Shown piece by piece: positions 24,060 through 28,560 of a DNA stretch of 64,000 bases. Source of the stretch: Candidatus Tumulicola sp. (GTDB taxonomy: Bacteria > Vulcanimicrobiota > Vulcanimicrobiia > Vulcanimicrobiales > Vulcanimicrobiaceae); assembly GCA_036490475.1 (NCBI GenBank), contig DASXDT010000006.1, positions 992,001 through 1,056,000 on the forward strand. Reading direction: 5' to 3'. A model generated the notes under the pieces. It did not search any database. It was given only the letters and a program-made list of their open reading frames with translations, and was not told where the DNA came from. The position numbers and the translations under genes were made by a program. Each line of letters starts with the position of its first letter. Positions within the stretch are counted from its first letter, which is position 1.

Positions 24060-24494
24060 TTGGCGCATCTATGGGACGCGCTTCGCCTGCGTCCCGAGAT
24101 CGCTCGCACGTTGGCCGCGCACGACCGCGCCGTCGATCGAGGCAGCGTCGATCCACGGACGAAGGCACTCTGCGCGGTCATGGTTGCGTGGCTCAACGCG
24201 TGCGAGCGCTGCGTCGAAAACAATCTCGATGCGGCGCGCGAGCTGGGCGTAACCCAGGCGGCGTTGGACGCCCTCGAACGCTACACCGAAAGCGACGAGT
24301 TTTCTCCGGATCAACGCGTTGCGCTCGAAGCTGCGGTTGCGATCACGCGCGAACCTCGCGGTGTCTCGCCGGTGTTGTGCGAACGCTTACGCGTACATTT
24401 CGACCAGGGTCAAATCGTCGAACTCGTCGCGGCCATCGGTTTACAGAACTATCTATCGCGCGCCAGCAACGCGTTTCGGACGGCCATCCCTTAG
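24060..24494 (+). CDS. carboxymuconolactone decarboxylase/AhpD-family protein
   Basis: 144 residues from TTG 24060, directly after the previous stop. The CMD-domain helix pair is present with a redox-type CERC (C48, C51) in the segment WLNACERCVENN and the family-typical LDPRTKAL-like region just before it (VDPRTKALCAVMVAW). With CxxC and a following His absent in the usual place, AhpD-like peroxidase activity is possible but unproved. The stop shares TTAG (24491-24494) with the convergent M48-like gene. Confidence 0.75.
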   Translation: MAHLWDALRLRPEIARTLAAHDRAVDRGSVDPRTKALCAVMVAWLNACERCVENNLDAARELGVTQAALDALERYTESDEFSPDQRVALEAAVAITREPRGVSPVLCERLRVHFDQGQIVELVAAIGLQNYLSRASNAFRTAIP

Positions 24495-25969
24495 TTCGAC
24501 CCGGTGGCGCGAGCGACGACGCGCTCGACTTTCACGAGACGCGTCTTCGTCCATCGATCGTGCAAAAACGTATGCCGCCAGAAGAAACTCAGGAGCCCGA
24601 TAAGCGGCCACAAGAAGAACACGATCGTGTAGCGGAAGATCGTCTGTGCCAGTTTGGGCTTGCGAAAATCGACCGTAACCACGCGGAGCCCCGCGATCAT
24701 CATTCCGAACGTCTGGCCGGCGAGCGTCACTAGCAGCGCCATGTACACGACAAACCAAAACAGCTTACCCGACCGATTGTTGGGATCCAACGCACGCGGC
24801 GAAATCAGAAACGGCCCGAGCTTGAACTCAACATTGTTCGAGGGTACGAAACTGATCGGCCCGATATTCACCGTTTGCGGCTCCGGCGTTGCGGTCGGCT
24901 CCGGCTTCACCTTATCGACAGTTTCTTTATCCGCAGTTTCCTTATTTGTAGTTTTGTGACGTGCGGTCGCCGCAGGTTTCGAATCGTCGTCGTTGATGTT
25001 GACGGCCACCGGCACGCCGTTGCCTCCACCGAACGAGTTGATGATCGATAGCACCAGCGCGATGTCGATGCCGAAGGCGGCGAAGCGCCGCCACCAGCCG
25101 GCGCAATCTTTTTTGGCTACCGTCGTGATGCCCGGCGCCGCAAGCTTCGGCGGCTCTTCGTCCCGCTCGCGAACGAACCAGGCACGTGCCAGTTCGTACA
25201 TCGGCGTCGACATGAACTCGCGCAAAGAAGCGATACGCGTCGTCGCATACGGTTCGGCTCCCAGCCACACGCCCCAACGCGAAACCGAATCGGCTTGCAG
25301 CTCCGCATATTGCTCGGCAAACGCGTGATAGTCGACCTTGCGTCCGAACTCGTGGAATTCGGCCACGCCGACGGCGCGGATGGCAGCGTTCAAGTCGCCG
25401 CAACAGAGCAATCCGAACTTGTCGCAGGTCGCGGCGCAACGTCGCAGCCAGGCGCCGAAAATGAGCGCGATGATCGGGTTCTCTTTGCCGTTCACACTGA
25501 GCAGCGAGAGAAAACGCGTGTGTCCGGCGGCGATGTGTCCGAGTTCCCGACCGATCATGAAGGCCAGCTCGTCGTCGTCGAACACCTCGATCCAGTGGCT
25601 GGAGAGCACCAGCGAATACGGCTCTCCGAATCCGAGCGCCGCGACCGGCACGTAGTTGTCCTCGCGGACGAACACCAGCGGCATCGGAATATCCAACGCG
25701 GCGCAAGCCGACTTCACGATCGAAAAAACGCGCGGGTACTGTAGCTCGTGAACGCGCACGCTGGTTCCGAGTAATCGGCCGCGTGCCAGCGTCACATAGA
25801 CCATCGCAATGACGATGAACAACGCGACCTGCGAGGCGCCGATCGACTCGTGTAAGATGTAGCCGATGAAGAGCGCCGCCGGAAGCGCCAACAGGGCCGT
25901 GGCCCAGAAAGCGATGCGCTCGCGGGGGTCGCGTAGCGAGTGCGGGCCGGCAAAGACCGTAGCGTCCAC
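24491..25969 (-). CDS. M48-like membrane protein with degenerate metal motif, fused to RDD domain
   Basis: About 492 residues from GTG 25969. A longer GTG start at 26035 is possible but runs through AT-rich promoter sequence. Two N-terminal hydrophobic helices are followed by an M48-type peptidase region in which the HExxH motif reads RELGH (Arg codon 25547-25549, His codon 25535-25537), with GHTRFLSLL after it. The first zinc ligand is therefore lost. A later segment EQYAELQADSVSRWG corresponds to the third-ligand helix. The C-terminal part (from GWWRRFAAFGIDIALV) is an RDD-type membrane domain interrupted by a polar Lys/Thr/Glu linker. Probably a non-catalytic membrane protein, unless Glu and the remaining His suffice. 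Confidence 0.7.
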   Translation of the reverse strand: MDATVFAGPHSLRDPRERIAFWATALLALPAALFIGYILHESIGASQVALFIVIAMVYVTLARGRLLGTSVRVHELQYPRVFSIVKSACAALDIPMPLVFVREDNYVPVAALGFGEPYSLVLSSHWIEVFDDDELAFMIGRELGHIAAGHTRFLSLLSVNGKENPIIALIFGAWLRRCAATCDKFGLLCCGDLNAAIRAVGVAEFHEFGRKVDYHAFAEQYAELQADSVSRWGVWLGAEPYATTRIASLREFMSTPMYELARAWFVRERDEEPPKLAAPGITTVAKKDCAGWWRRFAAFGIDIALVLSIINSFGGGNGVPVAVNINDDDSKPAATARHKTTNKETADKETVDKVKPEPTATPEPQTVNIGPISFVPSNNVEFKLGPFLISPRALDPNNRSGKLFWFVVYMALLVTLAGQTFGMMIAGLRVVTVDFRKPKLAQTIFRYTIVFFLWPLIGLLSFFWRHTFLHDRWTKTRLVKVERVVARATGSN

Positions 25970-26028
25970 CGCGCCTTCTCGGCTTCGACGGTCCGGCTTT
26001 CCTACAAAAAAATATTTCGCTAGGGTTC

Positions 26029-26057
26029 TTGACACCTAAACCATGTTGTACTAGTGT
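26029..26057 (+). promoter_or_regulatory. sigma-70-like promoter of the peptide/GntR/ABC operon
   Basis: A perfect TTGACA -35 box (26029-26034) is followed after 17 nt by TAGTGT (26052-26057). A better-matching TGTAAT lies 3 nt further on at 26055-26060. The -10 region lies inside the palindrome 26044-26069, so a bound repressor would block RNA polymerase. The start codon of the 39-aa peptide is about 35 nt downstream. Confidence 0.65.
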
Positions 26058-26069
26058 AATAGTACAACA
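26044..26069. promoter_or_regulatory. perfect palindromic operator, probably bound by the GntR/YtrA-type repressor
   Basis: TGTTGTACTA and TAGTACAACA are exact reverse complements, 10 bp each, separated by the 6-nt spacer GTGTAA. GntR-family dimers bind such inverted repeats, and the regulator gene is the second gene of this operon, so autoregulation is the simple reading. The minus strand also shows TACAAC at 26050-26045 with TTACTG 17 nt before it, so the same site could control the divergent M48-like gene. Confidence 0.75.
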
Positions 26070-26092
26070 GTAAGCTAATACGGAGCCGAGAC

Positions 26093-26212
26093 ATGACCAA
26101 GAACCTGACCAACGCCCAAGACTCGAACCCGCTCAACGACCAGCGGACCACCGTGCGCTTCCCCAACCCGACGGGCAGCTCGTTCTTCCAGGGCTGGGGC
26201 CCGAAAGCCTAA
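26093..26212 (+). CDS. 39-residue peptide, first gene of the GntR/ABC operon
   Basis: ATG at 26093 with a GGAG site at 26082-26085 and the stop TAA at 26210-26212. The product begins MTKNLTNAQDSNPLND and ends FPNPTGSSFFQGWGPKA. It is hydrophilic, Asn-rich, without Cys, His or an N-terminal hydrophobic stretch, and has a slight positive charge. The codons are strikingly uniform (AAC, ACC, CTG, CAG, TTC, GGC), as in highly expressed genes and unlike the mixed usage of its neighbours. It follows a strong promoter-operator directly and precedes the regulator by 10 nt. I do not recognise it. It could be a signalling or antimicrobial peptide, or the substrate of the ABC transporter. Confidence 0.7.
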   Translation: MTKNLTNAQDSNPLNDQRTTVRFPNPTGSSFFQGWGPKA

Positions 26213-26222
26213 ACAGGCCGTC

Positions 26223-26621
26223 ATGCCGGCCGTCCTTACGGTCGACCCTGGAAGCGGGGTGCCGATCTATCTACAAATCATCGAGCAAGTCAAGCGCTCC
26301 GTCGCGTTGGGCGTGCTGCAATCCGGTGAGCAACTGCCAACCGTCAAGCAGCTGGCCCTCGACCTGACGATCAACCCAAATACGGTCGCCCGTGCGTATC
26401 GAGATCTCGAGCGCGATCAGATTATCGAAACGGCTCCCGGCCGCGGCTCGTTCGTGCGCCAAAACGGCGCCGAGGCGAACGTCCGGGCGGCTGCCACCGA
26501 CGTAGCCCGCGCGGCCGTGGACGGGGCGCTGCGAGAAGCCAAATCGCTCGGCCTTACGCGCTCCGACGTTCGCGCTACGGTCGACCTCGCACTCGACCGT
26601 TGGTTTCCGGAGGAACGATGA
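26223..26621 (+). CDS. GntR-family transcriptional regulator, YtrA subfamily
   Basis: 132 residues. The N-terminal winged helix is typical of GntR: PIYLQIIEQVKRSVALG, then GEQLPTVKQLALDLTINPNTVARAYRDLERD and GRGSFV. Only a short C-terminal helical tail (~75-130) follows, too small for a FadR, HutC or MocR effector domain, which marks the YtrA group. YtrA-type repressors usually control adjacent ABC transporter genes and respond to cell-envelope stress or small molecules. The stop overlaps the ATPase start (ATGA), and a palindrome upstream of the operon is its likely operator. Confidence 0.9.
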   Translation: MPAVLTVDPGSGVPIYLQIIEQVKRSVALGVLQSGEQLPTVKQLALDLTINPNTVARAYRDLERDQIIETAPGRGSFVRQNGAEANVRAAATDVARAAVDGALREAKSLGLTRSDVRATVDLALDRWFPEER

Positions 26622-27532
26622 ACGCCATTGCAATTTCGCACCTGAGTAAGCGCTACGGTTCGTCCGTGGCCGTCGACGATCTGTCGTTACAGATTCCGTC
26701 CGGCACGGTGTTCGGATTGCTCGGGCCTAACGGCGCGGGTAAGACGACGACCTTCAAGTGCATGCTCGGATTGATGCGTCCGAACGCAGGCAGCGTCGAA
26801 TATGCGGGTCAACCGCTCGCGCCGTCCACGTTCGAAGATATCGCCTACGTTCCCGAGCGCAGCGTCCTCTACGATTGGATGACGGTCGCGCAACACGTCG
26901 AGATGAACCGTCGCGCATTTGCGCGATTCGATCCGAGCGGCGCGGCGCAGTTGCTGGCGCGCTTCAGTATCGATCCGCGAAAACGCGTGCGCGCACTGTC
27001 GAAAGGCATGCGCACCGCAGTCATGGTGTCGCTGGCATTCGCCCGGAACGCAAAAGTACTGATCCTCGACGAACCGACCAGCGGTCTCGACCCGGTGAAT
27101 CAACGCCACGTCTTAGGCTTGATCGTCAACGAGGCGGCGCGCGGTAATACCGTTCTGTTTTCATCGCATCAAATCGGGCAGGTGGAACGTGCGGCCGATC
27201 GCATCGCAGTGCTCGACCACGGACGGTCGATCCTGACCGGCCTGGTGGACGATTTAAAAGCCGATCGCAAGATCGTCGAGGGTGTGTTCCTCGATGGAGC
27301 GACCGACATAAGCGCCGTGAGCCGCGACCCGCGCGTTGCGCGCGTCGACCGCGTCGATCGTATCGTGCGCATGCTGGTCACCAGCGGCGCTGACGACGTC
27401 GCGCAACGGATGACGGCTGCCGGCGCGACGGGCGTTCGCCTACTCGATCTCAACCTCGAAGACATTTTCTTCTATGCAGTATCGCCCGCCGACGCATCGT
27501 CGGACGCGGCGACGAGGAGTATCGCACAGTGA
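26618..27532 (+). CDS. ABC transporter ATP-binding protein
   Basis: 304 residues from ATG 26618, with GGAGGAA at 26609-26615 and an ATGA overlap with the regulator. All nucleotide-binding motifs are intact: Walker A LLGPNGAGKTTTF, signature LSKGMR, Walker B VLILDEPTSGLDP and the switch His in FSSHQIGQV. The C-terminal ~80 residues are the regulatory tail seen in ABC-2-type exporters (CcmA/NatA-like). It pairs with the next gene, a permease, through a GTGA overlap. Export of the operon's peptide or of an envelope-active compound is plausible. Confidence 0.92.
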   Translation: MNAIAISHLSKRYGSSVAVDDLSLQIPSGTVFGLLGPNGAGKTTTFKCMLGLMRPNAGSVEYAGQPLAPSTFEDIAYVPERSVLYDWMTVAQHVEMNRRAFARFDPSGAAQLLARFSIDPRKRVRALSKGMRTAVMVSLAFARNAKVLILDEPTSGLDPVNQRHVLGLIVNEAARGNTVLFSSHQIGQVERAADRIAVLDHGRSILTGLVDDLKADRKIVEGVFLDGATDISAVSRDPRVARVDRVDRIVRMLVTSGADDVAQRMTAAGATGVRLLDLNLEDIFFYAVSPADASSDAATRSIAQ

Positions 27533-28560
27533 CCTACGTAGAATGGCTACGTGTCGCCGTCGCGCTCAAGCGAACGGCAATTTTTCTGGGCATCCTGATC
27601 GTCATCGCCATAGCAGCCCGGATATGGGTGGCATATTACGGGCCGGTCAATGCGATGTCGTACGTCAACTCCATCCAGCACGATCCGGCGTCGCATGTGG
27701 TCGTTTCGACCTTGGCGGATGGATCGCAACGAACCGTTATCGACAATCCGGTAAAACAAGTACACCTCGAAGTGACGGATCGCGGTCACGGCGATGAAAT
27801 CGTGCGCATCGTCCGCTCGGGCGTCGCCCACACGCCGCTAGTCTTTGGTGACGCCGACATACACAGTTCGATGCACAGTTCGATGCACGGCGACCAAAGC
27901 GATATAACCATCGAGACGCACAAAGACCAGCTCGATGGTTCGGCGGCAGAATTCGGTACCGCCGGCGTCATCGCGCTCATCATCGGCATGATGTTGGCCG
28001 GATGTTTCGCGCGAGAGAATGACGGCCATTTGGAGATAGCGCTCACCAAGCCGGTGTCGCGCACCCAACTATCGATCCGTATCATGCTGGTCGACATGGC
28101 CGGCATCGTGGGCGCCTGGGCTTTGAGCGTCGTCGCTGCGTACATCATCATCGCGCTCTTTGTGGGATTTCACTTCGGCGTGACCGCAAACGACTGCCAG
28201 TTGGCCGTCGCAGTGATACTCGGTGCGATCGCGTGGTATGCGTTACTGTGCTGCGCTACGGCATCGCTCAAGCGCAACTACGGTATCATTTTGGGCACGG
28301 CGTGGATCGCCGGGCAGTTGATTCCAGTGTTGACACGCATTCCCAGCGATGCGCCGCCGTTGCTCGGTTTTCTTCGGATCGTAGCGACGCCGCTATCGTG
28401 GATCGATCCGTTCACCTACGCCCGGGTCTCGGTGGCTCTTCCGTCGGCGGCGGAAATGTTGCGCGTCTATCCCTACGCCCTCGAGATTCCCGTACTCGTT
28501 GCTCTTACTATCGCATACGCGTTCTTTGCCATACTGCAGTGGCGCCGAGTGGAGGCATAA
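27529..28560 (+). CDS. ABC-2-type permease with a His/Met repeat in its first external loop
   Basis: 343 residues from GTG 27529. A first helix (~15-35) is followed by a long extracytoplasmic loop (~36-140), then about five helices (beginning GTAGVIALIIGMMLAGCF, VDMAGIVGAWALSVVAAYIII, LAVAVILGAIAWYALL, and the last near the C terminus). This is the usual plan of ABC-2 permeases with a large first loop. The loop contains two perfect HSSM repeats followed by HGDQ (residues 112-122). It should form the membrane part of the exporter with the preceding ATPase. Confidence 0.85.
   Translation: MTYVEWLRVAVALKRTAIFLGILIVIAIAARIWVAYYGPVNAMSYVNSIQHDPASHVVVSTLADGSQRTVIDNPVKQVHLEVTDRGHGDEIVRIVRSGVAHTPLVFGDADIHSSMHSSMHGDQSDITIETHKDQLDGSAAEFGTAGVIALIIGMMLAGCFARENDGHLEIALTKPVSRTQLSIRIMLVDMAGIVGAWALSVVAAYIIIALFVGFHFGVTANDCQLAVAVILGAIAWYALLCCATASLKRNYGIILGTAWIAGQLIPVLTRIPSDAPPLLGFLRIVATPLSWIDPFTYARVSVALPSAAEMLRVYPYALEIPVLVALTIAYAFFAILQWRRVEA
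27862..27885 (+). repeat. two tandem 12-bp repeats coding HSSM-HSSM
   Basis: CACAGTTCGATG occurs twice in a row, in frame with the permease, followed by CAC. It gives His and Met at alternate ends of four-residue units, a pattern that can bind soft metals such as copper or silver. Slipped-strand duplication is the likely origin. Confidence 0.85.

Follow-up and report, generated by a model that had tools for sequence, protein, structure and literature searches.

The open reading frame at positions 26093–26212 (+) of the window, the 64,000-nt stretch of DNA analysed here, is, as judged from homology, a member of an undescribed family of ~40-residue peptides confined to the bacterial phylum Eremiobacterota, and the C-terminal tail of these peptides is under very strong purifying selection. 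The window gene consists of 39 codons plus TAA and encodes MTKNLTNAQDSNPLNDQRTTVRFPNPTGSSFFQGWGPKA; family peptides of 32–52 aa are spread across the class and end in F-x-G-W-G-[PVI]-[K/R]-[L/F/I/V]-stop. These small proteins are highly constrained and unannotated, and their phylum had no cultured member until recently. We consider it roughly an even bet (probability about 0.5) that the peptide works as a free, trans-acting product whose C-terminal tail docks on one shared cellular partner.

The extent of the family was determined by successive searches. A single-sequence search (E ≤ 1) was positive in 38 of 60 related genomes, and profiles built from the relatives so found were positive in 113 of the 149 genomes of the phylum at E ≤ 0.5; a tail profile added to these extended detection to almost every member of families f1 and f3 of the class. 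A strict DNA pattern, F-x-GWG-x-x-hydrophobic-stop, yielded ~170 matches in the 149 genomes compared to ~11 for the reversed pattern, and carrier genomes typically held 1–4 copies by this pattern. Order-level relatives in family f2 (G037–G040) gave borderline tail-profile matches (E 0.002–0.015) without a strict-pattern match, and these are possibly diverged copies. A related DNA tail pattern, which covers only P-type tails with G/C-rich codons and TAA or TGA stops, was found at 16 places in 84,980 species, every one of them in Ca. Eremiobacterota, the record titles reading Candidatus Eremiobacterota, Eremiobacteria, Eremiobacter or Vulcanimicrobiota. One carrier, G009, is putatively the cultured species Vulcanimicrobium alpinus WC8-2, in which a peptide gene (locus L252, 1915–2061, MTTAAAPAPAAVSGARAHVRTVRPEPARPCVGRTRPDFASFRGWGVSI) precedes gntR, ABC and permease genes. 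Scanning 56 family members against Pfam and NCBIfam gave nothing credible, no PDB chain matched a GWG-tail peptide, and our literature search found no paper on such peptides. AlphaFold2 modelling of the window peptide with 56 relatives predicted one 4-residue helix and no confident fold (pLDDT 64).

Conservation is concentrated at the C-terminus, as the earlier note had proposed to check. F-x-G-W-G was present in 120 of 120 collected peptides, although this strict invariance is partly due to the selection of copies, most of which were collected by requiring GWG, and the survey of gntR genes given below is the less biased check. The motif is followed by P/V/I, mostly K/R, then L/F/I/V and the stop; in the window copy, the tail FQGWGPKA (26186–26209 (+)) carries an A at the last position. 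The pN/pS values, calculated from 13 hand-picked close pairs, were 0.25 overall, 0.04 in the tail and 0.29 in the remainder, and the presence of same-frame homologues at a pN/pS of 0.25 identifies 26093–26212 as a coding gene. The peptide ended exactly three residues past GWG in 113 of the 120 copies. Stop codons were TAA in 75, TAG in 36 and TGA in 10 peptides (neighbouring genes, 27/32/41%), an avoidance of UGA that resembles the ribosomal genes of the window genome and fits a need for either an exact C-terminus or high expression. Together with the fixed distance of the tail from the C-terminus, avoidance of the leaky UGA fits recognition of the exact C-terminus. Two observations count against docking through the tail end: residues beyond the usual end were found in 7 of 120 copies, and in G104 a 162-aa protein (L251, 1141–1626 (−); start codon putative), the only fusion seen, carries the motif SRTRLFSGWGPRL internally, with a signal/TM segment and a TonB_C domain immediately after it. 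A free carboxylate is therefore not always needed.

In the window, the peptide gene is the first of a four-gene operon. It is followed, with the next start 11 nt past the peptide stop, by a GntR-family (YtrA-like, 132 aa) regulator (26223–26621 (+)) matching the gntR profile and PF00392 (E=3.9e-14), by an ABC transporter ATPase (26618–27532 (+); PF00005, E=1.7e-26), and by a predicted membrane protein (27529–28560 (+)) without a Pfam match, probably the ABC permease, the position of which is conserved in relatives. The PF00392 domain, the length, the adjacent ATPase and a palindrome place the regulator in the YtrA subfamily, with predicted DNA binding. A protein with M48 peptidase and RDD membrane domains (24491–26035 (−); PF01435, PF06271; start uncertain, 25969 also possible) is divergent from the operon; M48 peptidases were rejected as a fixed partner since they lie near the peptide in only 13 of 64 loci. 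The perfect palindrome TGTTGTACTA-N6-TAGTACAACA at 26044–26069 is probably the operator to which the GntR/YtrA-type repressor would bind, and GTACTA-N6-TAGTAC was found exactly in 48 and in looser form in 71 of 93 gntR-linked copies. A Shine-Dalgarno sequence, GGAG (26082–26085 (+)), lies 7 nt 5′ of the ATG. The promoter of gntR-linked relatives is of the type TTGAC[AG]-N17-TATTGT; in the window (26029–26069), the −35 element stands about 8 nt nearer the operator than in relatives, so that the usual −10 (TATTGT) is lost. A strong promoter, as ascribed earlier to this copy, is not supported. The −35 hexamer, TTGACA (26029–26034 (+)), is perfect, but TAGTGT, which occupies the −10 position at normal spacing, is a poor match, and strict promoter scans detected no promoter at the window copy and no acceptable −10 at 16–18 nt from TTGACA.

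The codon usage that had first drawn attention to this gene was evaluated with 24 ribosomal/EF genes from the window genome as reference. The window copy had a CAI of 0.852 and a GC3 of 0.946, compared to CAI values of 0.608±0.059 for other genes (n=196), 0.688±0.041 for ribosomal genes, and 0.614, 0.623 and 0.566 for the neighbouring gntR, ABC and permease genes, respectively; a CAI of at least 0.852 was rare both among 38-codon windows taken from other genes (0.6%) and among draws encoding the same peptide with the codon usage of the genome (0.2%). The earlier note's observation of a 39-residue peptide with strongly biased codons, in contrast to the genes around it, is thereby upheld, the CAI lying above the genome mean rather than, as would have spoken against it, no higher. 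The second copy in the same genome had a CAI of 0.559, and across 64 peptides GC3 differed from that of local genes by 0.006 (Wilcoxon p=0.64), which rules out codon bias as a family trait. Because the bias is not kept in relatives, codons by themselves say little about abundance. Across the family, stronger hints of high output come from ribosome sites, promoters and stop usage: a Shine-Dalgarno core preceded 96% of peptide starts compared to 41% of other genes, and good sigma-70 promoters were found in 80 of 93 gntR-linked, 6 of 6 BlaI-linked and 6 of 6 CGNR-linked copies (shuffle expectation, 2.0, 0.1 and 0.2, respectively), with no such promoter at the 14 other copies. The suggested abundance of the product is partly supported by these signals, not by conserved codons.

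The genomic contexts were compared in fetched loci, with genes called by a simple ORF caller. A gntR profile that took no account of the peptide located 108 gntR homologues, and a GWG-tail peptide lay just upstream in 95 of them (38 known beforehand and 57 of 70 newly checked); the gntR frame match crosses one in-frame stop in G102:C32, G114:C290, G078:C86 and G079:C158. The gntR start lay a median of 11 nt past the peptide stop (≤20 nt in 79 of 94; range up to 122 nt), and the ribosome site is mostly weak at gntR and strong at the peptide. This spacing, the weak gntR sites and the first-gene position in most loci suit a cis-acting leader and count against docking. The main rival explanation, which we regard as rather unlikely, is arrest of the nascent chain or of termination, in which the tail FxGWG[PV][KR]-hydrophobic-stop would hold the ribosome at its own stop, either as TnaC does or by trapping release factor as apidaecin and drosocin do, and thereby control re-initiation downstream. 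Arrest would account for the fixed position of the tail relative to the stop, the avoidance of UGA, the closeness of a gntR start mostly lacking a good Shine-Dalgarno sequence, and the resemblance of the last three residues, P-K/R-hydrophobic, to the P-R-L-COOH warhead of type II proline-rich antimicrobial peptides (PrAMPs); the likeness to apidaecin, however, comprises these three residues only, the spacing to gntR extends to 122 nt, and gntR operons persist without the peptide in genus g24. An attenuator RNA was rejected, and arrest likewise disfavoured, by the lack of covarying structure in 11 aligned leaders and of any Rfam match in the window. Moreover, whereas in gntR operons the peptide does precede a gene it could control, the next gene was on the opposite strand in 11 of 64 loci (L064, L065, L069, L076b, L079b, L081, L085, L093, L100b, L102 and L108). 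With no gene following on their own strand, peptides at these loci have nothing downstream to act on. The peptide is therefore more than a cis leader, and such stand-alone copies, like the selection acting on the tail, speak for a product that works in trans. That the peptide is a product in its own right and not merely a leader had been argued earlier from its codons; the claim is supported, but by the stand-alone copies, the fixed tail end and selection at the protein level.

The same tail recurs beside unrelated regulators. Some copies lead BlaI-BlaR1(M56) operons (L082, L086, L087, L090 and L098), in which the upstream inverted repeat is of another, BlaI-like type; in L087 (5021–7102), the BlaR1-type M56 peptidase is fused to many pentapeptide repeats. 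Other copies diverge from a CGNR/ABATE regulator and have GGTTAC-type repeats (L079, L081, L085, L093, L100 and L104), or are divergent from a cluster of ECF sigma, anti-sigma and response-regulator genes, just upstream of a DUF4097 protein. The second copy of the window genome, MATIPNTLLSDPARPTVGGTERNSAQALRPTFTGWGPRI, belongs to the last context (L254, 6701–6820 (+); G000:C6, about 1586700–1586819) and lies upstream of pyrimidine-type genes. Single copies precede ECF sigma, VOC-like and S9 peptidase genes. The partner of the tail is not the repressor, since the tail is constant while the neighbouring regulators are unrelated and the operator-like repeats upstream differ; a role of the tail as ligand of GntR only was rejected on the same grounds. 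These contexts also bear on the proposal, which we hold to be quite improbable, that the peptide is exported or processed (a signal, bacteriocin or RiPP), that the neighbouring ABC transporter handles it and that it induces this exporter via the GntR repressor. Such a role would match the operon order peptide-GntR-ABC-permease, the divergent M48 peptidase of some loci, and the finding that phenol-soluble modulins (PSMs) bind the GntR-type repressor PmtR and induce their own exporter (PMC5080381). It is made less likely by the BlaI-, CGNR- and ECF-linked copies, which carry the same tail without an adjoining ABC transporter; the peptide sequence also has no hydrophobic leader or signal peptide, and the transporter operon survives without the peptide in g24. 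A RiPP precursor was rejected, as no maturation enzyme was recognised in the neighbourhood clusters and PqqD-type recognition elements, the class surveyed genome-wide, did not co-occur, being absent from many carriers.

Genus g24 (loci L248, L249, L250 and L255–L262) appears to have lost the peptide altogether. Thirteen of the 108 gntR homologues had no peptide upstream, and eight of these belonged to g24, where the operator, gntR, ABC and permease genes are kept and the peptide is gone. Likewise, the ECF-sigma/response-regulator operon with the divergent DUF6249 gene is kept in 8 of the g24 genomes without the peptide and without DUF4097, and neither the tail profile nor the strict pattern found a copy anywhere in the 10 g24 genomes. 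That every copy disappeared from operons which were otherwise retained suggests that the copies depended on a common, dispensable partner, lost as well; separate losses of genes no longer needed may be an alternative, the set of metagenome-assembled genomes being incomplete. Two features would suit an ordinary translational-coupling leader, one that supplies the regulator with a ribosome site and whose own product is functionless: the site is strong at the peptide and weak at gntR, and in g24 a strong Shine-Dalgarno sequence stands immediately before the gntR start, as if the site of the peptide had been taken over. The invariant residues, the tail pN/pS of 0.04 and the stand-alone copies make this reading very unlikely.

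Under docking on a shared partner, the reading we prefer, short, apparently unstructured and cytosolic peptides would act as free products. The peptide gene stands first behind a regulated promoter, under a GntR/YtrA repressor here and under BlaI, CGNR/ABATE or next to an ECF sigma factor elsewhere, and switching on the regulon would lead to its synthesis in quantity. The N-terminal part varies, and the tail F-x-G-W-G-[PVI]-[K/R]-[hydrophobic]-COOH would be the docking motif that brings several regulons to bear on one target. In the operons with gntR, which often has no ribosome site of its own, translation of this regulator is probably also coupled to that of the peptide. The partner was not found in our searches; many genomes with the peptide lack PqqD-type recognition domains. 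A stronger version, which we put forward tentatively as possible though less than probable, is a phylum-specific intracellular peptide code, in which unrelated stress-type regulons (GntR/YtrA, BlaI-BlaR1, CGNR and ECF sigma) would release peptides of the same tail to a single dedicated receptor, one genus having lost the receptor and all its peptides. The invariant tail behind unrelated regulators and its joint loss in one genus make the shared target a directly testable question.

Four known systems invite comparison. The YtrA-regulated ABC operon of B. subtilis likewise has a YtrA-type repressor before ABC genes and a palindromic operator near the promoter, whereas here the first gene encodes a GWG-tail peptide. 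The PSMs of S. aureus with PmtR/PmtABCD also link a small peptide to a YtrA-type GntR repressor and an ABC transporter, but PSMs are amphipathic membrane-active helices, whereas the GWG tail recurs with unrelated regulators and its BlaI, CGNR and ECF loci contain no ABC genes. With TnaC, SecM and RAPP-type arrest or leader peptides the family shares a short first ORF, conserved residues near the stop and tight spacing to the next gene; unlike them, it includes stand-alone copies and its host operons survive loss of the peptide, and we know of no motif common to both groups. Type II PrAMPs such as apidaecin and drosocin vary at the N-terminus and conserve about 8 residues at the C-terminus, which finish in P-R-L-COOH; the Arg and Leu of this end contact the release factor and the P-site tRNA (PMC11347161, PMC11549390). 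GWG peptides likewise have a variable N-terminal part and ~8 conserved residues at the other end, and most finish in P/V/I-K/R-L/F/I/V (P-K-A in the window copy), a possible counterpart of P-R-L-COOH. Their upstream residues differ, and they are bacterial, about 40 aa long, not proline-arginine rich, marked by an invariant F-x-GWG and encoded in regulated operons. Should the tail act on terminating ribosomes, the GWG peptides would be an endogenous bacterial counterpart of these insect antimicrobial peptides.
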